A stretch of DNA of 64,000 nt, taken from Geobacter sp. DSM 9736 (GTDB lineage Bacteria; Desulfobacterota; Desulfuromonadia; Geobacterales; Geobacteraceae). Location of the stretch: contig NZ_LT896716.1 in assembly GCF_900187405.1 (NCBI RefSeq), positions 62,001-126,000 of the forward strand. Direction: 5' to 3'. Under the pieces are notes generated by a model that had not been told where the DNA came from, did not search any database, and was given only the letters and a program-made list of their open reading frames with translations. Positions within the stretch are counted from its first letter, which is position 1. Each line of letters opens with the position of its first letter. Shown in pieces: positions 1 through 16,125 of this stretch. The translations under genes and the position numbers were made by a program.

Positions 1-517
1 CCGGCCGACTGTCCTGGGGCTGGGGGAGATAGGACTGAACCGTAACGGCCGCAATGAGGTGAAGGTGCTCGAATGGCAGGTGGAATTGGCGGCGGAGCGG
101 CAGGAGCTGATCCTCGTCCACACACCCCACCTGGAGGACAAGCTGAAGGGGACAAGGCTCATCATCGACCTGATCAGGAACGAGCCGCGGTTGAGCCCCG
201 ACCGTGTGCTCATCGACCACGCCGAGGAGCATACGGTAAAACTCATACGTGATGCCGGGTTCTGGGCAGGAATCACCCTATACCCATTGTCCAAGTGCAC
301 TCCCGCCCGTGCCGTCGATATCCTGGAAACGATGGGGCTCGACAGGATATGGCTCAATTCTGCGGCGGACTGGGGGGTAAGCGATCCGCTGGCGGTGCTG
401 AAGGCAGGGGAAGAAATGAGGCGCCGCGGCTTCGGGAGCCACGAGATTTCGCAGGTCCTCCGCGACAATCCTGCCGCATTCCTGGGTCAGTCTCCACGAT
501 TCCGTCTCCCATGTTGA
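1..517 (+). CDS. eboB: EboB-like TatD-family metal-dependent hydrolase, 5' end missing
   Basis: The frame is open to the left edge of the window (codons begin at base 2), so the N terminus lies outside and only 171 residues are visible. The visible part reads like the C-terminal half of a TatD-type TIM-barrel hydrolase: GLGEIGLNRN near the edge, then HTPH and the IDHAEEHT segment, which supply the His and Glu residues expected to bind metal. EboB is the TatD-like member of the ebo cluster, which in cyanobacteria is needed to move scytonemin precursors to the periplasm. Its stop overlaps the eboE start by 7 bp. The Ebo assignment rests mainly on the three genes that follow; alone it could be any TatD-family hydrolase. 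Confidence 0.75.
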   Translation, partial: RPTVLGLGEIGLNRNGRNEVKVLEWQVELAAERQELILVHTPHLEDKLKGTRLIIDLIRNEPRLSPDRVLIDHAEEHTVKLIRDAGFWAGITLYPLSKCTPARAVDILETMGLDRIWLNSAADWGVSDPLAVLKAGEEMRRRGFGSHEISQVLRDNPAAFLGQSPRFRLPC

Positions 518-1581
518 CCTACTGCACCAACATCCATCCGGGGGAAACGTGGGAGGAGGTTTCCACCTCCGTCTGGCAAAATGTACTCAAGGTGAAGGAG
601 CGGGTATCTCCGGATGCTCCTTTCCCGGTAGGGCTCCGGGTTTCGGCGCGTGCTGCCCGCGAAGCGACAACGGAATCGGCTGTGGAGTTTCTGGAGGAAT
701 TGGGGCAAAGCGGATGCTTCATTCCCACCATCAACGGCTTTCCTTTCGGTTCGTTTCACGGCGATCGGGTTAAGGAACAGGCATATCTCCCGGACTGGCG
801 CAGCCGGGAGAGGGTCCAGTACACCCTCGACCTCGTGCGGCTCCTCAATGTCTGGCTTCCCAACGGAATTACAGGTTCCATTTCCACGGTGCCCGTCGGA
901 TACAGGGCACATCTCAACCGGCAGGACTTTCCCCTGATACGGGAAAACCTCCTGAGCGTTTTGAAGGAGCTGGAAGGGGCGGCAGAGGGGGGAAAGCGGA
1001 TAATCCTCGCGTTGGAGCCGGAGCCGGGATGCCTCCTCGAAACCGCCGAGGACGCCATTCGCTTCTTCGAGACAATGGACTTTCCTCAGGACTTCAGACC
1101 CTTTATCGGCCTCTGCTACGATTGCTGTCACGGTGCCGTCATGTTCGAGGAGCCCCGGCAGGCTCTCTTTGCTCTGGAGCAGGCGGGTATTACCGTACCG
1201 AAGATTCAGGTCTCCTCGGCGGTCCGCCTTCTCCGGGATCATGCTGCCGCAGCGGAACTGTTCCGGGAACCCCGTTACCTGCATCAGACGAATGTCAGAA
1301 GAGGAGCTGACATACTGCCATTCGGGGATCTTCCCGATGCGCTTCTGGAAGGGGCACGCATGGATGAGGAGTGGCGGATACATTTCCATCTTCCTCTGTA
1401 CGATGACGGAAGAGGGCGGTACGGGACCACCAACGGCTTCATCCCCCATGTTCTCGCATGCCGCCCAGCCGGTGCGCTCCTGGAGATAGAGACATATACC
1501 TACGATGTTCTTCCAGATAAACCCGCCTCGATAACCGATTCCATCTGCCGGGAGTTTGAGTGGTTGAGGTCGCGCCTGTGA
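511..1581 (+). CDS. eboE: EboE-like TIM-barrel protein (metabolite traffic)
   Basis: The protein has 356 residues from the ATG at 511 (MLTYCTNIHPGETW), which overlaps the eboB stop. Longer in-frame starts exist but would read through eboB. The segments LTYCTNIHPGE, LALEPEPGCLLE and GLCYDCCHGAVMFEEP fit a xylose-isomerase/AP-endonuclease-like TIM barrel with Glu, Asp and His metal ligands. EboE is the TIM-barrel member of the ebo cluster; its substrate is unknown to me. The gene overlaps eboF by 4 bp (GTGA), so translation is probably coupled. No signal peptide is visible, so it is likely cytoplasmic. The family call is good and the biochemical role is inferred only from the cluster. Confidence 0.8.
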   Translation: MLTYCTNIHPGETWEEVSTSVWQNVLKVKERVSPDAPFPVGLRVSARAAREATTESAVEFLEELGQSGCFIPTINGFPFGSFHGDRVKEQAYLPDWRSRERVQYTLDLVRLLNVWLPNGITGSISTVPVGYRAHLNRQDFPLIRENLLSVLKELEGAAEGGKRIILALEPEPGCLLETAEDAIRFFETMDFPQDFRPFIGLCYDCCHGAVMFEEPRQALFALEQAGITVPKIQVSSAVRLLRDHAAAAELFREPRYLHQTNVRRGADILPFGDLPDALLEGARMDEEWRIHFHLPLYDDGRGRYGTTNGFIPHVLACRPAGALLEIETYTYDVLPDKPASITDSICREFEWLRSRL

Positions 1582-2948
1582 ACCGCACCGTCGTCATAAA
1601 CATGGTGGGGCTGTCTTCATCGCTTCTCGGCCCGGACACCCCGCGCATAAACCAGCTTGCCTCCTCTCGTGCGCGTGTGAGGCCGCTCTGTCCCGCGGTA
1701 ACCTGCTCCATGCAAGCCACCTACCTCACCGGGAAGCTTCCCGGTGAGCACGGGATCGTCGGGAACGGCTGGTACTTCCGGGACCTCTCGGAGGTATTTT
1801 TCTGGCGCCAGTCGAATCGTCTCGTCCAGGGGGAGAAGGTATGGCATGCCGGGAGGAAGCGTGACCGGTCCTTCACCTGCGCCAACAGCTTCTGGTGGTA
1901 CAACATGGCGACGGACGCCGACTGGAGCGTCACACCCCGGCCGATCTACTGTGCCGACGGGCGCAAGATCCCCGACTGCTACACCGCTCCCGGCCATCTC
2001 AGGGAGGATTTCACGAGGCGCTTCGGCCGCTTCCCCCTTTTCCGCTTCTGGGGCCCCGCCACATCCATCGAATCGAGCCGGTGGATCGCCGACGCAGCCA
2101 TGGCATTGGAAGAGCAGTTCCGGCCGATTCTCCACCTTATATATCTCCCCCACCTGGACTACTGCCTCCAGAAGGTAGGATCGCGCGCAGAGGCAGTCTC
2201 GAAGGATCTGCGGGAGATCGATACCCTCTTCGGCACCCTGGCAGACTTCTTCCTCGGCCGCGGCTGCCGACTGATCCTGCTTTCCGAATATGGGATCTCG
2301 CAGGTGGATAACCCCGTCCACCCGAACCGGATTCTCCGGGAGGCTGGGCTGCTCGGCGTGAAGACCGACCTGGGGCGGGAGTATCTCGATCCGGGCGCCG
2401 GCAGGGCGTTCGCGGTTGCCGATCACCAGATCGCCCATGTCTACGTGCGGGGCAAACGGGACGTGGAGGCGATAAAGTCACTCTTTCTGGCTGTCCCTGG
2501 TATCGAGCATGTGCTCGATGTGGATGGGAAGAGGGGGTGGGGGCTTGACCACGAGCGTTCCGGAGAGCTGATTCTCGTGGCGTGCGAGGGGAGCTGGTTC
2601 ACCTACTACTTCTGGGAGGAAGATGCCAGGGCGCCCGACTATGCTCGGACGGTGAACATCCACGCGAAGCCGGGGTATGATCCCTGCGAGCTTTTCCTCG
2701 ATCCGCGGATCCGGTTCCCCGCCCTGAAGGTCGGGACATTTCTTATGAAGCAGCGGCTCGGCTTCCGTGGACTCATGGAGGTGATACCTTTAGACGCACG
2801 TGTCGTACGGGGCTCCCATGGCAGAGTCCCGGAGGATCGGGGGGAATGGCCTCTCCTCGTCTCATCGGAGAACCGTCTCGTGCAGGACCACCTGCTTCAG
2901 GCCACAGACGTCTGCAAGACCATACTCGACCATGTCTTCATCGACTAG
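1578..2948 (+). CDS. eboF: EboF-like alkaline phosphatase/nucleotide pyrophosphatase superfamily protein
   Basis: The protein has 456 residues from the GTG at 1578, which overlaps the eboE stop by 4 bp; a GTG 18 bases earlier is possible but less neat. It resembles type I phosphodiesterase/nucleotide pyrophosphatases: an N-terminal strand followed by a nucleophile region PAVTCSMQATYLTG with a candidate Thr, GEHGIVGNGW, then LPHLDYCLQ, ILLSEYGIS and VADHQIAHVYV, which provide the Asp and His metal ligands. This matches EboF of the ebo cluster. No signal peptide is seen. The substrate is unknown. The first metal ligand after the N-terminal strand appears to be Asn (VVINMVG) where an Asp is more usual. 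Confidence 0.78.
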   Translation: MNRTVVINMVGLSSSLLGPDTPRINQLASSRARVRPLCPAVTCSMQATYLTGKLPGEHGIVGNGWYFRDLSEVFFWRQSNRLVQGEKVWHAGRKRDRSFTCANSFWWYNMATDADWSVTPRPIYCADGRKIPDCYTAPGHLREDFTRRFGRFPLFRFWGPATSIESSRWIADAAMALEEQFRPILHLIYLPHLDYCLQKVGSRAEAVSKDLREIDTLFGTLADFFLGRGCRLILLSEYGISQVDNPVHPNRILREAGLLGVKTDLGREYLDPGAGRAFAVADHQIAHVYVRGKRDVEAIKSLFLAVPGIEHVLDVDGKRGWGLDHERSGELILVACEGSWFTYYFWEEDARAPDYARTVNIHAKPGYDPCELFLDPRIRFPALKVGTFLMKQRLGFRGLMEVIPLDARVVRGSHGRVPEDRGEWPLLVSSENRLVQDHLLQATDVCKTILDHVFID

Positions 2949-3666
2949 AGTGCTCCCAGCCGGAATGTACGGCTACCTGCAGTTGTGCCGGGTGAGCAAC
3001 CTGCCCACGGTCTGGGTCAATGTGCTTGCAGCCTGCCTTCTGTCCGGGGGGGATTTGTCGTGGCTGAAAGTGTCACTGCTCCTGACGGGAATATCAATGG
3101 CCTACTGCGGCGGAATGGCCATGAACGATTGCGTTGACTCTGCTGCCGATACGCTTCACCGGCCCGAACGGCCTATCCCGTCAGGGAGGATCACCGTCAC
3201 TCAGGGGACGGTGCTGTATGTAATCCTCTTCTTTTTTGCCGTGGTGACTTTTGCAGCGGCCGGCGGTATCCCTGCTTTTGCCGCTGGTATTTTCCTTCTG
3301 ATCCTTATTGTCCTGTACAACCTTGTCCACAATCTCTCACCCCTCTCCGTTATTCCCATGGCCGGATGCCGCTTCATGATATACGTCGTCTCCGGCCTCG
3401 CATGCTCGGGGACGCTTAGCTTTCCCCTTCTTGCGCTGGCAACGGTGCAGTTCGGTTATATCCTGCTCCTGTCGCTGGCCGCGCGGCTAGAAAAGGGGGG
3501 AAAGGTGAAACGAAGGGGAATGCCGCTAGTGCCGGTTATGCTGGCAGGCATTCCTGTAGTCGACGGTATAGCGTTGGCGTTCGTGGTGGGACCGGGCTGG
3601 TTTACAGCCGGTATCGCGGGTGGAGCGGCGACCCTGGCGTTTCAGAGGAAGGTGAGGGGGGATTGA
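2932..3666 (+). CDS. eboC: EboC-like UbiA-family prenyltransferase, integral membrane
   Basis: The gene encodes 244 residues from the ATG at 2932, overlapping the eboF stop by 17 bp; a GTG at 2950 and an ATG at 2965 are alternatives. The protein is strongly hydrophobic with several predicted membrane helices. It carries the UbiA signature NDxxDxxxD as NDCVDSAAD, followed by RPERPIPSG, which binds the prenyl diphosphate through magnesium. I do not see a clear second Asp-rich motif. EboC is the UbiA-like member of the ebo cluster and is thought to build or modify a prenylated carrier. It is the last gene of the run here; no eboA or eboD is visible, and they may lie upstream of the window. Confidence 0.78.
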   Translation: MSSSTRVLPAGMYGYLQLCRVSNLPTVWVNVLAACLLSGGDLSWLKVSLLLTGISMAYCGGMAMNDCVDSAADTLHRPERPIPSGRITVTQGTVLYVILFFFAVVTFAAAGGIPAFAAGIFLLILIVLYNLVHNLSPLSVIPMAGCRFMIYVVSGLACSGTLSFPLLALATVQFGYILLLSLAARLEKGGKVKRRGMPLVPVMLAGIPVVDGIALAFVVGPGWFTAGIAGGAATLAFQRKVRGD

Positions 3667-3758: not shown

Positions 3759-4061
3759 TCACGCCGCATCCTTTAACGGCTTGACCTCCCGCTCGATCCG
3801 CTCGGCCATGGTGATTTCAGCAACTTCAAGATCATATTCAGCCTGAAGGTTCATCCAGCTCTGGGCGTCGGTGCCGAAGAACCTCGCCAGGCGCAGGGCG
3901 GTATCCGCAGTGATGGACCGCTTCCCTGCGCAGATTTCATCAATACGACGCTGTGGTACGGCGATGGACTTGGACAGGCGATAGCGGGTTATGCCCATTG
4001 GCTTGAGGAAGTCTTCCAGAAGAATTTCACCGGGGTGAACAGGAGGCAGGTCGCGTTTCAT
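3759..4061 (-). CDS. higA: HigA-type antitoxin, XRE/VapI family
   Basis: This 100-residue protein contains the HigA/VapI signature PPVHPGEILLEDFLKPMGIT followed by a helix-turn-helix (YRLSKSIAVPQRRIDEICAGKRSI). The ATG at 4061 is chosen because the sequence GAGGAG lies just before it; a TTG five codons earlier would overlap the toxin stop. It neutralises the HigB toxin and normally represses the pair from an upstream operator. The gene follows the toxin gene by 11 bp, the toxin-first order typical of higBA. It stands alone between the ebo operon and a radical SAM gene, which fits a small acquired module. Confidence 0.9.
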   Translation of the reverse strand: MKRDLPPVHPGEILLEDFLKPMGITRYRLSKSIAVPQRRIDEICAGKRSITADTALRLARFFGTDAQSWMNLQAEYDLEVAEITMAERIEREVKPLKDAA

Positions 4062-4072
4062 GTCGTTTCTCC

Positions 4073-4354
4073 TCAATGGTAATCTACCAGCTCCACGTCA
4101 AGTGCATTGCCGTCGGCCCATTGAAAGCAGATTCTCCACTGGTCGTTAATTCTGATACTCCATTGACCGCTGCGGTTTCCGGAAAGCTGCTCCAGCCGGT
4201 TTCCCGGAGGGACCCGAAGAAAATCGAGAGCCGCCGCGGCATGTATCTGTTTCAGCTTGCGTTGTGCTACACGCTGCACGTCCTGCGGCAATTTCGCCGA
4301 GAACCGACCATGAAACAGTTTTTCCGTTTCCTTGCAAGCAAATGATTTGATCAC
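4073..4354 (-). CDS. higB: HigB-type toxin, RelE/ParE superfamily mRNA interferase
   Basis: The 93-residue product starts at a GTG (MIKSFACKETEKLFHG) and has the RelE/ParE fold signature of HigB toxins: LPQDVQRVAQRKLKQI, then RLEQLSGNRSGQWSIRINDQWRICF, and a C-terminal strand ending in VELVDYH. HigB cleaves mRNA in a ribosome-dependent manner in characterised members. It is first in the pair and shares a transcript with higA downstream. The Arg, Trp and His residues expected in the active face are present, so I see no sign that it is broken. The usual length is 90 to 110 residues. Confidence 0.88.
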   Translation of the reverse strand: MIKSFACKETEKLFHGRFSAKLPQDVQRVAQRKLKQIHAAAALDFLRVPPGNRLEQLSGNRSGQWSIRINDQWRICFQWADGNALDVELVDYH

Positions 4355-7739: not shown

Positions 7740-9320
7740 TCAGTCGGCCAGAAGCGCCTGGTTGATCTCTATCTTCGCCTTCGCCTTCAGATCCTTGAGC
7801 CACTTGTCCATCGCCTCCTGCTGTTTCTTCGGCAGAAGCGATCGGGTTAACTGATCCTTCTGCTTCTGGAAATCCGCAGTACTGGCTGCTACGCGGTTCT
7901 TGAGCCTGACTGCATACCAGCGGTCGGCGACCTTGAAAGTTGTCTTTGCAACGGGTGCCGCACTGGTGAGATCGAACGCGGCTTCCATCAGGTCTGGGGA
8001 GGGGCCGATCTTGGGTACCACCGGATTTTTGTCGGAGTAGGAGAAAAGTCCGGTCTCCTGAACGGGAGCTCCTCCCTTGGCGAGCAGAGCCAGAGCATCT
8101 TCAGCTTTCTTCTTCGCAAGATCCCGTGCCTTTTCCTCGCGAGCGAGTTTCTCGACCTGTGTCCTTATCTGCGCAAGGGGCGGGACTGCAGCAGGCTTTC
8201 TCTCCTTTACCTTCACTATGTAGATGCCTTTAGGAGTCTCGATGGGCCCTCCCAGTTCACCCTGCTTGAACGTGAAGGCCCGCTTGAGAAGCTCGGTCTC
8301 GCCGGCGAGTTGCGCGGGAGGGGTCGAGGCTGAGAAGAGCGGCGTCTCGGAGACGGCTATGCCTAGAGATTTCGCGGCGGCGGCAATGTCTCCGGATTTC
8401 AGGTTCTTGTTTGTGGCGTCGGCAGCCAGCTCGTAAGCCTTTGTGGCGCCCTTGGCGCGCTGGGCGTCTGCCCGTGCACGGTCTTTTACTTCGGCAAAAG
8501 GCAGTATCCCGCCCTTTCCCTGGTATCGGTCGATGTTCTTCTGGTAGTAGGCCTGCGCTTCCTCATCGGTTACCGTGACCCCAGCAGCCACCTTGCCCGG
8601 ATCCACCAGAGCATACTGAAGGCTCACCTGCTCCGGAGTCTTGAACTGCTCCGGGTGCGCCTGGATATACGCATTGAGATCCTGATCGGTGAGTTTTACC
8701 TCCCCGGCCACGTCGGCGGGTGCGAAGGAAATGAACTGGAGTTCCACCGTGTCATTCTGTTTCTTGAAGGCCTGCAGTGCCTCTTCATCCGTCACCTTGA
8801 CCTGGTTCTTTACCTGCTCCCTGGCTTTCTTGACGAGCAGTTCCTCCTTCTGCGCATCCTCGAATTGGGTCGGGGTCATGCGGCTGGACCTGAGGATCTG
8901 CTGGTAGAGCTGGAAGTCGAAGGCGCCGTTCTTCTGAAAGGAGGGAACGGCGGCAACTGCGGCGGCGATCTCGTCCTTGCTCACCTTGATTCCCATCCGC
9001 TTCGCTTCCTTTCGGACGAGAGCCGTCTCGATCAGGTTGTCGAGGGCCGTTTTCTTGATCCCCAGCTGCTTCTCCATTTCGGGGGTCAGGGATCGCCCGT
9101 AGATCTGATCATAAATGTTGCGCAGTCGGTAGTAGCTGTTCTGGAAAGCCTCCAGCGAGATCTTTTCTCCGTTCACTTTGGCTGCGTAGGAGGCTCCCCC
9201 CACCGACGTTCCTCCTTCTCCCCAGACGAGGAAGATGGTGCCGATAAAGGAAAGGACGATTATGCCGAAGACTACCTTGATGATGACTGACTGCTTGTAC
9301 TTTCTCATTATGCCGAGCAT
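7740..9320 (-). CDS. ppiD: PpiD/SurA-type membrane-anchored periplasmic peptidyl-prolyl isomerase
   Basis: This is a 526-residue protein with a short cytoplasmic N terminus (MLGIMRKYKQS), one membrane anchor at about residues 13-35 (VVFGIIVLSFIGTIFLVWG), and a large periplasmic part. The segment at about 45-200 is a SurA_N-type chaperone domain (KVNGEKISLEAFQNSYY, VSKDEIAAAVAAVPSF). A parvulin-like rotamase region lies around 230-370 (TPEQVSLQYALVDP through PIETPKGIYIVKVKERKP), followed by a Lys/Ala-rich C-terminal chaperone part. PpiD helps proteins leaving the Sec translocon to fold. It is divergent from mreB and upstream of purC. The exact cis-trans isomerase activity of such forms is often weak or absent. 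Confidence 0.85.
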   Translation of the reverse strand: MLGIMRKYKQSVIIKVVFGIIVLSFIGTIFLVWGEGGTSVGGASYAAKVNGEKISLEAFQNSYYRLRNIYDQIYGRSLTPEMEKQLGIKKTALDNLIETALVRKEAKRMGIKVSKDEIAAAVAAVPSFQKNGAFDFQLYQQILRSSRMTPTQFEDAQKEELLVKKAREQVKNQVKVTDEEALQAFKKQNDTVELQFISFAPADVAGEVKLTDQDLNAYIQAHPEQFKTPEQVSLQYALVDPGKVAAGVTVTDEEAQAYYQKNIDRYQGKGGILPFAEVKDRARADAQRAKGATKAYELAADATNKNLKSGDIAAAAKSLGIAVSETPLFSASTPPAQLAGETELLKRAFTFKQGELGGPIETPKGIYIVKVKERKPAAVPPLAQIRTQVEKLAREEKARDLAKKKAEDALALLAKGGAPVQETGLFSYSDKNPVVPKIGPSPDLMEAAFDLTSAAPVAKTTFKVADRWYAVRLKNRVAASTADFQKQKDQLTRSLLPKKQQEAMDKWLKDLKAKAKIEINQALLAD

Positions 9321-9567
9321 ATGGAGAAGCTCCTTCGGAGAGATTGAGAGGCGGCAACGAGCCCGGTGAGCGGTGCGGTCGGAGTGGTGGTCATCCGGGA
9401 CAACGAGTTGGACATACTATTCTATTTCCCCCTCAAAAGCAACAATAACGTCGGTCGGGGAGGGTGGGGAAATGGGCCGGGGTGACCTGTCATGCGACGG
9501 GGGAGCAGTGCGGTGAGAGGGCAGATGTAGGTGCTGAAAAAGACGAGTGTAGCGCCTATTTATAGCT

Positions 9568-10669
<1,102 letters not shown>

Positions 10670-10958: not shown

Positions 10959-12053
10959 ATGGAGATAGACATCGTCGTTCCGGTCTGGAACCGGCCGGTT
11001 GAAACGCGATCCTGCCTCGTGAGCCTCGTCGAACATTCTCCCGGCGCCCGCTTCATTTTCATCGATAATGCCTGTGACCGTGAAACCGAGCGCCTTCTCC
11101 ACGAGGTAGCGGATGCCCTCGATCACCGCGCGCTCCTCGTTCGCACCAACTCCAATATAGGGCTCGTGCCTGCAATAAACCTCGGGCTGTCACGCGCGGA
11201 AGCCCCTTTCCTCGGGCTGGTGCGCAACATCTGCCGGGTCGGCAAGGGGTGGCTTCCTCCTATCCTCGAATTCGCCCGCTCCCATCCGGATGCCGGCGTT
11301 CTCATGCCCCTTCTGCTTCCGGAGGGAGCATCGGAAAAGAGGATGCCTGCGAATTGCTCCCCCGCAATGGAGGCCTCAGAGGCTTCCATCGATGCCATGG
11401 TTCTCAGGAGAGAGCTGTACGAGCGGGCTGGTGGGCTCGACGAGGGGCTGGATGCAGCCGTGTGGTGTGCCCGTGACTATGCCCGCCGAGCTCACCGCGA
11501 AGGTTTTCTTGCCTTCACGATAGGGACGAGCGTTGTATTTCGCAGCCCGGAGGCGACGCTCGGCTCCCCCTCGAAACGGGAGGAGGTCGTCCGGCGCAGT
11601 GCCATGCTATACCGGGAGAGATGGGAAGATGATTCCTCGTTCTGTATTCACTTTCCTGGCGAGGTAACCCAGGAAAGCATTCAGCAGAGGCTCGACCTGT
11701 TTCTGGCAGCCGCGCGGCAGGGGCATCGCGTGACGCTCCTCGTATCGGCGAAGCTCTCCCGGCGGCTCTCCGAGATGGGGATGAGTCGGGTTCACGAAAA
11801 CATCCGTATGGAACAGTTGCCTCGCCTCTTCACCGCAGGGGGGGCCCAGAAGCTTCTGGCAGCTGTTCGCCAAGCCTACTCCCGCACTACGGCGGTGACC
11901 GGGGTGGACGGTATACCCTTTCCGGGGGAACCGGAGGCGATACCTTTTTCCCGTTTCGAGGAGCTTGTTCGTGCTGCCGAGGCTGAACGGTTCCGGCCGC
12001 TGACCGCTCGGGACGATGTGCAGCAGGTTACTGAAACCGGAGGATTTGCATGA
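10959..12053 (+). CDS. GT2-family glycosyltransferase-like protein with altered catalytic motifs
   Basis: The 364-residue protein begins with the GT-A Rossmann start MEIDIVVPVWNRPVETRSCL and the FIDNACD strand typical of family 2 glycosyltransferases. Where active members have a metal-binding N-D-x (as in LLNNDxEV) this protein reads LVRNICRVGKGWL, and where an acidic pair is expected before the C-terminal helix it reads LDAAVWCARDYARRA. It also has about 140 extra residues with no domain I recognise. The gene overlaps gmhA by 4 bp and so belongs to the heptose operon. It may be a non-catalytic or rewired transferase acting in LPS core assembly. The family call is firm, the activity is uncertain. 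Confidence 0.7.
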   Translation: MEIDIVVPVWNRPVETRSCLVSLVEHSPGARFIFIDNACDRETERLLHEVADALDHRALLVRTNSNIGLVPAINLGLSRAEAPFLGLVRNICRVGKGWLPPILEFARSHPDAGVLMPLLLPEGASEKRMPANCSPAMEASEASIDAMVLRRELYERAGGLDEGLDAAVWCARDYARRAHREGFLAFTIGTSVVFRSPEATLGSPSKREEVVRRSAMLYRERWEDDSSFCIHFPGEVTQESIQQRLDLFLAAARQGHRVTLLVSAKLSRRLSEMGMSRVHENIRMEQLPRLFTAGGAQKLLAAVRQAYSRTTAVTGVDGIPFPGEPEAIPFSRFEELVRAAEAERFRPLTARDDVQQVTETGGFA

Positions 12054-12619
12054 CGTCAGAGATACTGTCGCAGCTCCGCGCCCATCAGGCGGTGATGAGC
12101 TTGATCGAAAAGGAACTCGTGGAGAAGGTCGCCGCATTGGTGGATATGATGGCGGATGCTCTTGGAAGTGGGAAAAAGGTGCTTGTGATGGGGAACGGCG
12201 GATCGGCGGCCGACGCCCAGCACCTGGCGGCGGAGATCGTAGGGCGGTTCAAGATGGAGCGGCGCGCGCTGCCGGCCGTGGCCCTTACGACGGACTCCTC
12301 GATCCTGACGGCCCTTGGAAACGATTACGGGTTCGAGTCCATTTTTCGGCGGCAGGTGGAAGCACTGGCTTCCCCCGGGGATGTGGTGATCGGCATCTCC
12401 ACAAGCGGCACGTCGGGAAACGTCCATTCCGCCCTTACCCTCGCTGCCGGAATGGGGTGCCGCACCGCAGGCCTCCTCGGCAGAGACGGGGGTACCATCC
12501 GGGACATCGTTGACATCGACCTCACCATACCCAGCGACGACACGCCGCGGATACAGGAGGGGCACATCACCCTGATCCATATCGTCTGCGACCTTGTGGA
12601 ACGTCGGCTTTTCAGCTGA
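12050..12619 (+). CDS. gmhA: D-sedoheptulose-7-phosphate isomerase
   Basis: GmhA (189 residues) converts sedoheptulose 7-phosphate to D-glycero-D-manno-heptose 7-phosphate, the first step to the LPS inner-core heptose. The SIS-domain signature is clear: VLVMGNGGSAADAQHLAAEIVGRF near residue 45, then ALTTDSSILTALGNDYGFE, the phosphosugar-binding GISTSGTSGNV near 117, and IQEGHITLIHIVCDLVE. It overlaps the upstream glycosyltransferase by ATGA and is followed by gmhB after 31 bp. Its length matches the family. Confidence 0.96.
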   Translation: MTSEILSQLRAHQAVMSLIEKELVEKVAALVDMMADALGSGKKVLVMGNGGSAADAQHLAAEIVGRFKMERRALPAVALTTDSSILTALGNDYGFESIFRRQVEALASPGDVVIGISTSGTSGNVHSALTLAAGMGCRTAGLLGRDGGTIRDIVDIDLTIPSDDTPRIQEGHITLIHIVCDLVERRLFS

Positions 12620-12650
12620 GGGAGCCCACTTCAGCGGCACGGGAATCACG

Positions 12651-13232
12651 ATGAAAGAGATGCGAACGAAACGCGCAGTTTTCCTTGACCGGGACGGCAC
12701 CATAAATGTCGATACCGATTACGTGCACCGCGCCGAAGACTTCGAGTTCATCCCCGGGGCGCCCGAGGCGATACGGCTTCTCAAGGAGGCCGGGCTGGTG
12801 GTGGTGGTGGTGACCAATCAGTCGGGTATCGGCCGGGGATACTACGACGAGGAGGCGCTGGCCGATCTGCACCGCTATCTCGACACGGAGCTCGCTCCTG
12901 TCGGAGCCTCCATAGACGCCTATTACTTCTGTCCCCATCATCCCGAGCACGCCGTCGGCGACTACAGGGTTGACTGCTCGTGCCGCAAGCCGTTGCCGGG
13001 CATGCTGGAGCAGGCTGCGTGCGATCTCGACCTCGATCTGCGGCGCTCTTTCATGGTGGGTGACAAGCTTTCCGACGTGGAGGCGGGACTCCAGGCCGGT
13101 TGCCGTACGCTGCTGGTCAGGACCGGGTACGGCGACAAGGCGGCCCCCAGTGTGCCGGAGGGGGTGACGGTGTGTGACGACCTGATGTCGGCGGCGCGCT
13201 CGATACTCGCCGAGCTTTCCCTGGAATCGTAG
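12651..13232 (+). CDS. gmhB: D-glycero-beta-D-manno-heptose 1,7-bisphosphate 7-phosphatase
   Basis: The protein has 193 residues from the ATG at 12651 ([16 protein letters not shown]). A longer frame from 12594 would overlap gmhA. It is a HAD phosphatase with motif [10 protein letters not shown], motif [15 protein letters not shown], the zinc-binding insert CPHHPE followed by the CSCRKP segment, and motif [18 protein letters not shown]. It removes the 7-phosphate from heptose bisphosphate. With gmhA it gives two of the heptose steps; the bifunctional kinase/adenylyltransferase hldE is not in the window. Confidence 0.94.
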
Positions 13233-13302
13233 CTTACGGTTTGACGCGGTTCGTTCCGATGTGATAAGAGCATCTCATTTATCTGTGAGAGGAAACGAGG
13301 AC

Positions 13303-14196
13303 ATGGGTATTACCAAAGGTATCATACTCGCCGGCGGCGCCGGCAGCAGGCTCTACCCGCTGACCCTTGTCGCCAGCAAGCAGCTTCAGCCGGTATACGA
13401 CAAGCCGATGATTTATTACCCCCTGGCAACCCTCATGATGGCGGGGATCAACGACATCCTCATCATTTCCACTCCGCAGGATACTCCTCGGTTTCAGTCC
13501 CTTCTCGGCGATGGTTCCCGTTGGGGCGTCCGCCTGACGTACCGCGTCCAGGCCGAGCCCAAGGGAATAGCACAGGCTTTCCTTGTGGGAGAGGATTTCA
13601 TAGACGGCGACCCGGTTTGTCTTATCCTGGGAGACAACATCTTCTACGGGAAGATGGAGCTCGACCGCGCTGCTGCCGGGTTCGGCTCCGGCGCGACGAT
13701 CTTCGGTTATTATGTCCAGGACCCGGAGCGGTACGGAGTGGTCGAATTCGATGCCGAGGGTAAGGCTGTGGGCATCGAGGAAAAGCCGGCCAGGCCTAAG
13801 ACGCATTATGCGGTTCCCGGCCTCTACCTCTATGACAGCAAGGTGGTGGATATCGCCCGCAACCTCAAGCCCTCCCCCCGGGGTGAACTGGAAATCACCG
13901 ATGTCAACCTGGAGTATCTGCGCCGCGGGGAACTCAGCGTGGTGAAACTCGGCCGGGGCATAGCGTGGCTCGATACGGGCACGCACCAGAGCCTGCTGGA
14001 GGCGAGCCATTTCATCGGCACGCTGGAGGCACGGCAGGGGCTCAAGATCGCCTGTCTCGAAGAGGTGGCCCTGCGTATGGGGTTCATCGATTGCGAGAAG
14101 ATGGCCGCCGTTATCGCCGATACTCCCAACTCGGCATACAGGGAGTATCTGCAGCGCGTGTACAATGAAATGGAGTTGTGCGGAGGGAAAATTTGA
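13303..14196 (+). CDS. rfbA: glucose-1-phosphate thymidylyltransferase
   Basis: The enzyme has 297 residues from the ATG at 13303, preceded by AGGAAACGAGG. It makes dTDP-glucose, the entry to dTDP-rhamnose and related sugars. The nucleotidyltransferase signature is at the N terminus ([16 protein letters not shown]), followed by [35 protein letters not shown], the metal-binding [30 protein letters not shown] and [14 protein letters not shown]. It is followed by an epimerase-like gene with overlapping stop and start. The rfbB and rfbD partners are not seen here, so the final sugar cannot be named. Confidence 0.95.
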
Positions 14197-14681
14197 GTGT
14201 ACTTTGCGAATTCAAAAAGGGTAAAATCCACGATGTCGTCATCAAGCCGCTGACCAAGTTCATTGACGAGCGGGGGTGGCTGGCGGAGCTTTTCAGGACG
14301 GATGAGGTTGCCCAGGACATCGTTCCGGTCATGGCATACGTTTCGATGACCCAGCCCGGAGTGGCGCGCGGGCCCCACGAGCATGCGGAGCAAACCGACT
14401 ACTTCTGCTTCATAGGCCCTTCGAACTTCAAGGTCTACCTCTGGGACTCCCGGGCCGACTCACCCTCCTGCGGAATACGACAGACCATCTATGGCGGCGC
14501 CGACAGCCCGCTCATGCTGATCGTCCCTCCCGGTGTGGTTCACGCATACAAGAACGTCGGCATCGATAACGGCATAGTCTTCAACGCCCCGAACCGTCTG
14601 TACGCGGGGGAGGGGAAGAGATCGCCCGTCGACGAGATCCGCCATGAGGAGTCGGCGGGGTCGGTGTTCCTCCTTGATTGA
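14193..14681 (+). CDS. RfbC-like cupin, dTDP-4-dehydrorhamnose 3,5-epimerase family
   Basis: The product has 162 residues from a TTG at 14193 overlapping the rfbA stop; a GTG at 14178 is possible, but the GGAGGG sequence sits between the two and favours the later start. It is a small cupin: [17 protein letters not shown] is close to the RmlC N-terminal signature, and [20 protein letters not shown] corresponds to the RG-x-H strand. The late [15 protein letters not shown] differs from classic RmlC. It probably epimerises or isomerises a dTDP-4-keto sugar. Because the usual RmlC active-site stretch is modified, I give no gene symbol. Confidence 0.75.
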
Positions 14682-14777
14682 CCCCTTGACTTGCCATGGC
14701 CATAGGGATGCGAAGGTGGTGTCGGCCAAGGTCGATACCTGTTTTCATAATGGTGTACATTGTCAATGATGTGATCG

Positions 14778-14800
14778 GGGAGGCTTTATTGCCTCCCTTT
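14778..14800 (+). terminator. hairpin with short T-tract before mreC
   Basis: GGGAGGC and GCCTCCC form a 7-bp stem around a TTTATT loop, followed by TTT only. It lies about 20 bases before the mreC start, so it may end the sugar operon transcript or act as a leader structure for mreC. Confidence 0.4.
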
Positions 14801-14819
14801 ACCGTTTCCGGGTGCGTTA

Positions 14820-15644
14820 ATGTGGGCGATTCTTAAAAAATACCGTGTTCATCTGGGGGTGGGAGCGCTATGTATGGCTGTCCTCATCTTTTACTCCCTG
14901 AACCTTCGCGCAAAATCACACGCGACCCCCTTCGAGCGGACCATGCTGAGCCTCGTTTCCCCCTTCGCGGAGACGGTGAGCAGTGTCAGCGACGCAGTAA
15001 CCGGCGTATGGAGCAACTACATCGATCTGGTAAACGTAAGGCAGGAAAACAAGCAGCTACGGGATAGCGTGAAGCTCCTAAATTCCCGGATGATTGCCGC
15101 TCAGGAAGCCCTCAATGCAAACACAAGGCTGCAAAGGCTTCTCGATCTGAGGGGTTCGCTGGATGCTCCTTCGATAGCTGCCTCGGTGATCGGGGATGAC
15201 GGTTCGGCATGGTACAAGACGCTGCTTATCAACCGTGGGGAGAAGGACGGAATCCGCGAGGGGATGCCGGTGGTGGCTGCTGAAGGAGTCGTCGGACAGG
15301 TTGCCAAAGTCGGGGCGGGAAGTTCACGGGTACTCCTCATGACTGATTATGCGAGTGGCGTTGCTGCCGTCGTTCAGCGATCCCGGGCCCGCGGAGTCGT
15401 GAAGGGGGCCGGTGGAGGCCGCTGCACGCTGGCGTTCACCGTCCGCGATGATGACGTCAAGGTGGGAGATATGGTGGTTACCTCCGGTATAGGGGGAGTG
15501 TTCCCCAAGGGATTGGCGGTAGGTGAAGTGACGATGGTAAAAAAAGGTGATTACGGGATTTTTCAAACGATCGACATCCGTCCCGCCGTGAACCTGATCA
15601 GACTTGAGGAGGTGCTCGTGCTCCTCCATACCGGCAATGATTAA
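14820..15644 (+). CDS. mreC: rod shape-determining protein MreC
   Basis: This 274-residue protein spans the inner membrane once (about residues 10-28, VGALCMAVLIFYSLNL), has a periplasmic coiled coil around 65-110 (VRQENKQLRDSVKLLNSRM), and a C-terminal double beta-barrel (ASVIGDDGSAWYKTLLINRG, GMPVVAAEGVVGQV, VTSGIGGVFPKGLAVGEV). It links MreB filaments to the peptidoglycan synthases outside. The stop overlaps the mreD start, and mreC-mreD-mrdA-rodA form one tightly packed operon. The gene is complete. Confidence 0.96.
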   Translation: MWAILKKYRVHLGVGALCMAVLIFYSLNLRAKSHATPFERTMLSLVSPFAETVSSVSDAVTGVWSNYIDLVNVRQENKQLRDSVKLLNSRMIAAQEALNANTRLQRLLDLRGSLDAPSIAASVIGDDGSAWYKTLLINRGEKDGIREGMPVVAAEGVVGQVAKVGAGSSRVLLMTDYASGVAAVVQRSRARGVVKGAGGGRCTLAFTVRDDDVKVGDMVVTSGIGGVFPKGLAVGEVTMVKKGDYGIFQTIDIRPAVNLIRLEEVLVLLHTGND

Positions 15645-16125
15645 AGCACTGAAGCTAGTTGTTATTCTTACGGCAGCACTCCTTTTGCAGGTTACGCTGC
15701 TTCCTCGTTGGGTCGCGGACCCGTTTCAGCCGAACCTGCTGATCGTTTTCGTCGTCTACCTCGGGCTGCGTGGGGGGGGGCGCGCAGACTGGACGCTCGT
15801 TCTCCTCCTCGGACTCATTCAGGACTCCTTCAGCGGGATCTACCTGGGCCTGCACGGCTTCTGCTACCTGCTTGTCTATCTCTTTCTCAAAAGCGTTGCC
15901 GACCGTGTCTACGCGGACAGCTCCCGGCTCGTCATTCTGATGGTGTTCATAGCCACGGTCGTCACAGGGCTGTTGCAGATTCTACTTCTTTCGATGTTTT
16001 CGGCTGCACCGGGCATATATGCCTCCATCTTCTACGCGCTGGTCCCTCAGGGACTCGTCAGCGCCCTGGCTGCCTCCGTCATGGTCTCTTTCCCCCTCTT
16101 TCCCTTTCTGGAGAAACACCGGTGA
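15637..16125 (+). CDS. mreD: rod shape-determining protein MreD
   Basis: The protein has 162 residues from the ATG at 15637 (MIKALKLVVILTAALLLQV), which overlaps the mreC stop by 8 bp. It is almost entirely hydrophobic with four to five predicted membrane helices, and includes QPNLLIVFVVYLGLRGG and the LIQDSFSGIYLGLHGF loop typical of MreD. It works with MreC and RodA/PBP2 in cell elongation. The end overlaps mrdA by 4 bp. MreD sequences are poorly conserved, so position in the operon is a large part of the evidence. Confidence 0.93.
   Translation: MIKALKLVVILTAALLLQVTLLPRWVADPFQPNLLIVFVVYLGLRGGGRADWTLVLLLGLIQDSFSGIYLGLHGFCYLLVYLFLKSVADRVYADSSRLVILMVFIATVVTGLLQILLLSMFSAAPGIYASIFYALVPQGLVSALAASVMVSFPLFPFLEKHR

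Follow-up and report, generated by a model that had tools for sequence, protein, structure and literature searches.

An eboG-type ebo operon that begins with two exported redox genes in Geobacter sp. DSM 9736

Results

Organization of the locus

The stretch of DNA analysed here (the window, 64,000 nucleotides of the Geobacter sp. DSM 9736 genome) opens at positions 1-3666 with four overlapping same-strand genes: the 3' part of eboB, eboE, eboF, and eboC. Position 1 of the window falls within eboB, and the rest of the ebo set is located upstream, at G000:C1:58395-62517. In total, eight genes on the same strand encode a propeller protein, a cytochrome, and EboD-G-B-E-F-C, in this order, neighbouring genes either overlapping or lying 0-4 nt apart; the stop codon of the cytochrome gene adjoins the start of eboD. 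The features are as follows.

G000:C1:58349-58376: promoter-like site before the propeller gene
G000:C1:58395-59879, same strand as the ebo genes, upstream of the window: propeller lipoprotein gene
G000:C1:59869-60231, same strand as the ebo genes: gene for a monohaem cytochrome c lipoprotein
G000:C1:60232-61413, same strand: eboD (NF004852, 503 bits versus 333)
G000:C1:61418-61720, same strand: eboG, 100 codons (Deinococcus EboG profile match)
G000:C1:61699-62517: full eboB gene, 272 amino acids, TatD-like metallo-hydrolase (PF01026)
Window 1..517, + strand: 3' part of eboB (PF01026, 27.4 bits versus 27 for whole EboB)
Window 511..1581, + strand: eboE, 356 amino acids, ATG at 511, xylose-isomerase-like TIM barrel (NF035939)
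Window 1560..2948, + strand: eboF, GTG at 1560 or 1578, alkaline-phosphatase superfamily (PF01663)
Window 2932..3666, + strand: eboC, 244 amino acids, ATG at 2932, UbiA-like membrane prenyltransferase (PF01040)

The start codons chosen in the eboE, eboF, and eboC region are slightly off those of the mechanical open reading frames. The eight genes, including the two upstream lipoprotein genes, probably form a single transcript.

Identification as an ebo operon

The gene set is almost certainly a complete ebo operon. In a profile search, EboE scored 376.9 bits against the equivalog model NF035939 (cut-off of 250, E = 9e-113); chance cannot account for such a score in a gene that belongs to a series of overlapping genes. 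Homologues of eboB, eboC, eboD, eboE, and eboF all cluster on a single strand, where they overlap or almost touch. The EboE score and the conserved gene order thus support the initial annotation, which had placed an ebo operon here. Its assignment of the genes to Ebo families held for EboE; EboC reached only 79.9 bits with NF035940 (cut-off of 250) but passed the UbiA family model PF01040 (69.8 versus 34.2). This low score probably arises because the locus is an eboG variant: NF035940 seems to cover EboC of the eboA type, and Deinococcus EboC likewise carries a UbiA-family annotation only. The score weakens the claim for EboC alone, not that for the operon. Dedicated Ebo models gave no match to EboB or EboF in the profile search.

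The upstream flank, which the initial annotation had suggested examining for eboA, eboD, and biosynthetic genes, contains eboD, eboG, and the beginning of eboB together with the two exported redox genes. In place of eboA it has eboG: Deinococcus EboG matches the EboG profile at 2.4e-30, and three EboA sequences gave no match to it. As judged from its sequence, the small open reading frame is EboG, which makes the locus an eboG variant and not an eboA variant. That the genes are unrelated to ebo is next to inconceivable, given that the sub-threshold EboC and the unmatched EboB and EboF, which would fit such a view, are set against the EboE equivalog score, the recognition of EboG, an identical D-G-B-E order in Deinococcus records that name EboE, and an order conserved across phyla that already contradicts it.

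Ebo loci in other genomes

The ebo cluster had been ascribed to cyanobacteria, Bacteroidetes, and eustigmatophyte plastids, but it is not confined to these groups: EboB has at least 585 relatives, the best 80 of which are mostly from Verrucomicrobiota and Planctomycetota, and ebo gene order is kept across phyla. A literature search with partly noisy terms found no work joining Geobacter with ebo.

Most other Geobacterales ebo loci contain exported squalene-cyclase-like, YdjY, and PEP-CTERM/PKD genes without an adjoining propeller gene, and, among the complete ebo neighbourhoods that were examined within the order, most encode exported proteins, with the families differing. The squalene-cyclase-like toroid protein had no match in the DSM 9736 genome, in a search that lacked a positive control; in other searches the same protein matched relatives at 57-84% identity. 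Giant open reading frames neighbouring ebo in other Geobacterales were considered as NRPS/PKS genes, a candidacy rejected for the one examined, which encodes a PKD-repeat protein. At one locus (L045 of genome G049, 84% complete), nearly every ebo gene has frame breaks, which are likely draft-assembly errors rather than decay.

Proteins encoded by the ebo genes

EboB, EboD, and EboE belong to enzyme-like families with conserved catalytic residues. EboB is 61-79% identical to 13 Geobacterales copies, and its metal-site motifs are invariant. The cyclase-fold metal ligands are retained in EboD, and a distinct AroB-type gene elsewhere in the genome scored 168 bits with PF01761 versus 111 for EboD. 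With TIGR01357 (3-dehydroquinate synthase), EboD reached 203 bits, under the cut-off of 305; NF004852, which it passed, also bears the name 3-dehydroquinate synthase. Inositol-3-phosphate synthase is encoded within six actinobacterial ebo clusters and that of Gemmatirosa, and EboD was not found in the fetched stretch of any of these seven. Given the presence of this synthase and the lack of a local EboD, a cyclitol is likely the shared product of ebo systems.

The NDxxDxxxD motif is conserved in EboC, besides which the genome holds two further UbiA-family genes. The EboG fold yielded no PDB match at E ≤ 0.001 and hence no function.

EboF scored 186.7 bits with PF01663 (type I phosphodiesterase; gathering threshold of 23), and its AlphaFold2 model (pTM of 0.87) matched 1ei6 and 2gsn in Foldseek (phosphonoacetate hydrolase/NPP). 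EboF has the fold and the catalytic-Thr position in common with NPP enzymes (PF01663; Xac NPP 2gsn, autotaxin). Whereas NPP has six metal ligands in a two-zinc site, V/A, Q, E, and Y occupy four of the six corresponding positions in all 51 of the 51 EboF sequences examined. These positions correspond to the ligands D54, H214, D257, and H258 of XaNPP. Given this replacement, the published label of "phosphate hydrolase" for EboF appears doubtful.

The propeller and cytochrome pair

The propeller protein passed PF07995 (glucose/sorbosone dehydrogenase; 28.8 bits versus a gathering threshold of 25) and scored 54 bits with the ScyD/ScyE model NF033206 (ScyE_fam), below its cut-off of 80; we therefore refer to it as ScyE-like, not ScyE. 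It shares the propeller family with PF07995 quinoproteins, although the similarity is weak (22 bits to glucose dehydrogenase B chains), and its motifs RNP..GLAF and HH resemble, in sequence, the site of soluble glucose dehydrogenase. A search for the PQQ synthesis protein PqqC gave no match in the DSM 9736 genome, but none in any control genome either.

Both the propeller and the cytochrome have export signals and are lipoproteins. Their genes adjoin eboD in DSM 9736 and in three Geotalea genomes, where the operon starts with them, an arrangement kept across two genera with 72-73% identity of the propeller. Propeller orthologues of >70% identity occur in 5 of the 141 genomes of the order, all five of which carry EboE, a protein present in 20 of the 141. 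This co-occurrence has p of about 4e-5 by genome and is weaker by genus (3/3 genera among 9/29, p of about 0.02). Genes of the ScyD/ScyE family also lead two Streptomyces ebo clusters. The pair occurs apart from ebo in genome G055 and in Deinococcus aetherius (L150) and is thus an independent module. In two genomes (G031 and G039, g6), the search found just a propeller-gene remnant next to an intact cytochrome gene.

Discussion

From the observed gene content and order, conservation, export signals, and catalytic-residue patterns, we infer a scheme of reactions, a transport step, a cargo, and a path for electrons. Our main reading, with a probability of roughly 0.4, is that a prenyl-cyclitol lipid helps a small molecule to reach the periplasm, where the propeller and cytochrome oxidise it. 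EboD would convert a sugar phosphate to a cyclitol, EboB and EboE would modify it, and EboC, a membrane enzyme, would prenylate it. EboF might act on or bind a phosphate-containing intermediate through its altered phosphatase-like site, and EboG might aid assembly of the enzymes at the membrane. The resulting lipid would aid passage of a small redox-active molecule to the periplasm, where the lipid-anchored propeller would oxidise it and deliver electrons to the cytochrome.

The role envisaged for the propeller and cytochrome is drawn in parallel to the proposal for Nostoc, whose ebo genes are required for a pigment precursor to leave the cytoplasm and whose periplasmic ScyE is proposed to oxidise the monomer (PMC6282210). 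The "metabolite traffic" label goes back to this one mutant study (PMC6282210). The operon has no transporter gene, and no sequence feature within it demonstrates transport. The joining of ebo to two exported electron-transfer genes suggests how a cargo might be used. The initial annotation supposed a prenylated or cyclised cargo; such a product may instead serve as the carrier.

According to an idea proposed by Yurchenko et al. (PMC5133447), ebo is a biosynthetic pathway that ends with the prenylated cyclitol; here this product would be a protective or signalling lipid oxidised outside the membrane by the propeller and cytochrome, with nothing transported for its own sake. The enzyme-like nature of EboB, EboD, and EboE, the apparent exchange of EboD for another cyclitol synthase in Actinobacteria, and the exported toroid proteins that accompany most ebo operons of the Geobacterales and could bind a prenyl lipid are all consistent with such a product. 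In Nostoc, however, each of the five ebo single mutants builds up the same monomer in unmodified form in the cytoplasm, without mutant-specific intermediates (PMC6282210), and we consider the end-product idea somewhat unlikely.

It is less probable again that the propeller and cytochrome constitute a periplasmic dehydrogenase of an ordinary kind, acting on sugars or aldehydes and functionally unconnected to the ebo genes behind it. The generic GSDH family, the unlinked pairs in G055 and D. aetherius, and the weak association at the genus level would be expected of such an enzyme, but not the junction of the cytochrome stop with the eboD start, the arrangement conserved in two genera, or the presence of ebo in 5/5 propeller-bearing genomes of the order. 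Very improbable is a role of ebo in making a cofactor or lipid for exported surface proteins generally (propeller, toroid, YdjY, PEP-CTERM) rather than a cargo carrier: most of the order's complete ebo neighbourhoods that were examined do encode exported proteins, but these are of varied families with no common feature suggesting one cofactor, and the Nostoc localisation data favour translocation.

The main reading, that of a lipid-assisted passage followed by oxidation, could be extended, as a speculation that we hold to be improbable, to ebo as a general maker of a prenylated cyclitol carrier lipid that feeds exported redox propellers. In Geobacteraceae it would provide the membrane-anchored propeller-cytochrome pair with an electron carrier, either diffusible or lipid-borne, and EboF would work through chemistry different from two-zinc hydrolysis. 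If so, ebo would belong to extracytoplasmic electron transfer.

The ebo system itself is already known; what is new are its partners, the EboF site, and the EboD exchange. Ebo is widespread, and its functional role in the literature found derives mainly from a single study of cyanobacterial mutants. The DSM 9736 genome, complete on a single contig and with ebo joined to only two exported redox genes, offers a small, defined target, and the EboF site change and the exchange of EboD for inositol-3-phosphate synthase provide specific predictions on the chemistry that are testable in vitro.

The eboA variant is that of Nostoc, Bacteroidetes, and plastids, whereas the eboG variant is known from Deinococcales, Herpetosiphon, an Acidobacteriaceae strain, and Thermithiobacillus (Yurchenko et al. 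2016, PMC5133447). The eboG-type operon of Deinococcus has the same kinds of gene, with eboG replacing eboA, in the order D-G-B-E-C-F; in DSM 9736, F precedes C, and the propeller and cytochrome lipoprotein genes stand at the start. The flanks examined did not show any genes for scytonemin. Nostoc punctiforme (Klicki et al. 2018, PMC6282210) has eboA, not eboG, with eboD apart, whereas here eboG is present and eboD lies inside the operon. The propeller of DSM 9736 differs from Nostoc ScyE in falling below the ScyE_fam cut-off and in being paired with a cytochrome, yet both systems link ebo to an exported propeller-type protein.

Organization of the ebo operon

The initial annotation placed an ebo operon of four genes (eboB, eboE, eboF, and eboC) at window positions 1 to 3666. 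In this complete, single-contig genome of 3.96 Mb, the window covers G000:C1:62001-126000, and the cluster extends past window base 1 into the upstream flanking piece L003 (C1:50001-66500; subtraction of 12000 from an L003 position gives the window coordinate).

Genes of the ebo operon (L003 coordinates)
8395-9879, +, propeller protein, 494 aa
9869-10231, +, cytochrome c, 120 aa
10232-11413, +, eboD
11418-11720, +, small protein (eboG), 100 aa
11699-12517, +, eboB
12511-13581, +, eboE
13560 or 13578 to 14948, +, eboF
14932-15666, +, eboC

Adjacent genes overlap or are separated by no more than 4 nt, and the sole intergenic gap (~118 nt) lies ahead of the operon and contains a promoter-like TTGACA-16-TAGTAT sequence, such sites being overall no more numerous in our scan than in shuffled DNA. 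Given this arrangement, all eight genes are likely carried on one transcript.

Two genes diverge from the operon: one for a MauG/CCP-like dihaem cytochrome that scored under family cut-offs (L003:6152-7555, -), and one for a 133-aa protein of membrane-embedded appearance (L003:7876-8277, -). Neither was recovered next to the Geotalea operons. Farther upstream (L003:2405-5485, +) are an aldehyde ferredoxin oxidoreductase gene and then a gene for a 387-aa protein in which an unassigned NH2-terminal part precedes a COOH-terminal class II aldolase domain. Downstream of eboC (window 3759-4354, -), two small overlapping genes resembled, by eye from their translations, a HigB-HigA-type toxin-antitoxin pair.

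Identity of the Ebo proteins

The assignment to ebo was borne out by the upstream genes that complete the cluster and by EboE, which scored 377 bits against a cut-off of 250 for its dedicated model. EboC fell short of its own model (80 versus 250 bits) and was recognized as a UbiA family member. EboB narrowly exceeded the TatD cut-off (27.4 versus 27 bits), consistent with published work in which EboB proteins generally match TatD weakly (PMC5133447), and EboF belongs to family PF01663. EboD scored 503 bits with NF004852 (cut-off of 333), but was below the cut-off of the AroB model TIGR01357 (203 versus 305 bits). Given that the genome contains elsewhere a better-scoring AroB-type gene and two further UbiA-family genes, eboD and eboC are probably not housekeeping copies.

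Of the two genes sought upstream, eboD was thus present, whereas the place of eboA is taken by eboG. A variant with this replacement, found in Deinococcales among others, was described by Yurchenko et al. (PMC5133447). A profile built from the small operon protein and its relatives recovered the Deinococcus counterparts (2e-30 and 1e-26) but not one of three EboA proteins, which identifies the gene as eboG. Among the best 80 of at least 585 EboB loci in a scan of GTDB genomes, mainly from Verrucomicrobiota and Planctomycetota, 67 had eboG in the same locus. The predicted structure of Geotalea EboG was helical (mean pLDDT of 86) and had no significant match in the PDB.

Sequence and fold comparison placed EboF within the NPP/phosphonoacetate hydrolase group. 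Compared with Xac NPP, EboF retains the Thr nucleophile as well as one Asp and one His. Positions D54, H214, D257, and H258, which we take to be metal-site positions of Xac NPP, are V/A, Q, E, and Y in all 51 EboF proteins compared, a set that covers several phyla and both the eboG and the eboA type of cluster. A standard two-zinc site is absent, and the substitutions are so strictly conserved that they suggest a change of function and not decay. EboF may yet be a phosphate-ester hydrolase, as a published prediction has it, but would then use a different mechanism.

An inositol-3-phosphate synthase gene lies inside the ebo cluster in six actinobacterial loci (L142-L146, L148) and in Gemmatirosa (L147). 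A search of the stretches retrieved for these seven clusters turned up no EboD, which could be encoded elsewhere in their genomes.

Neighbors of ebo in Geobacterales

EboE showed a patchy distribution (20 of 141 genomes of the order). In most of the other ebo operons, a gene for an exported squalene-cyclase-like toroid protein adjoins eboD upstream of the operon (L027, L028, L030, L032, L034, L035, L037-L039, L041, and L153-L155), often alongside genes for an exported YdjY-domain protein, a PEP-CTERM protein, and giant PKD-repeat proteins. A toroid protein gene beside eboD was also seen in Nitrospirae and other MAGs (L058, L062, L117, L068). In G030 and G031 of genus group g6 and in Geobacter sp. 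OR-1 (G008), a giant-ORF stretch splits eboD-G-B from eboE-F-C. Ferritin-like protein genes upstream of ebo, on Aureibacter and Mycetohabitans plasmids (L137:5651-6919, L138:5063-6121), possibly represent a further partner class.

In the present genome and three Geotalea genomes, the propeller and cytochrome genes occupy the place of the toroid gene. The window and Geotalea sequences formed one clade (support of 1.0) outside the toroid-linked group in an EboB+EboF+EboD tree, which is unrooted and so gives no direction of change. The propeller and the cytochrome both carry lipoprotein-type signals, as judged by eye. The propeller scored above the GSDH family cut-off (28.8 versus 25 bits), resembled ScyD/ScyE below cut-off (54 versus 80 bits), and also resembled PVC-type propellers; a ScyD/ScyE-family gene heads two Streptomyces ebo clusters. 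Propeller orthologs with >70% identity occurred in 5 of the 141 genomes, all five with EboE. By our own arithmetic, the chance of this co-occurrence is ~4e-5 by genome but ~0.02 by genus, and the association is therefore suggestive but unproven. G055 has both genes of the pair intact, at a large distance from ebo, and Deinococcus aetherius has the pair without local ebo; in two g6 genomes, G031 and G039, an intact cytochrome gene accompanies a propeller-gene fragment (L134:6289-6899, L135:8627-9207).

Comparison with the Nostoc system

From the observed genes, their order, export signals, and residue patterns, we infer a pathway that would comprise cyclitol formation, prenylation, translocation, oxidation, and electron transfer. 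In Nostoc, scytonemin monomer builds up in the cytoplasm of each of five ebo single-gene mutants, while in a scyE mutant the periplasm contains it as well; the carrier was proposed to be a prenylated sugar (PMC6282210). For the present operon, a rival reading nearly as likely as such carrier-based export is that ebo has the prenyl cyclitol as its end product, as proposed earlier (PMC5133447).

The operon is a genuine ebo operon that is complete and belongs to a known variant, not a new kind of system. What is new is its gene context, together with the EboF site and the EboD exchange, both absent from the ebo literature examined. Compared with the export model for Nostoc ebo, the gene anatomy here fits, whereas the cargo would be another one and the periplasmic end would be formed by the propeller-cytochrome pair.
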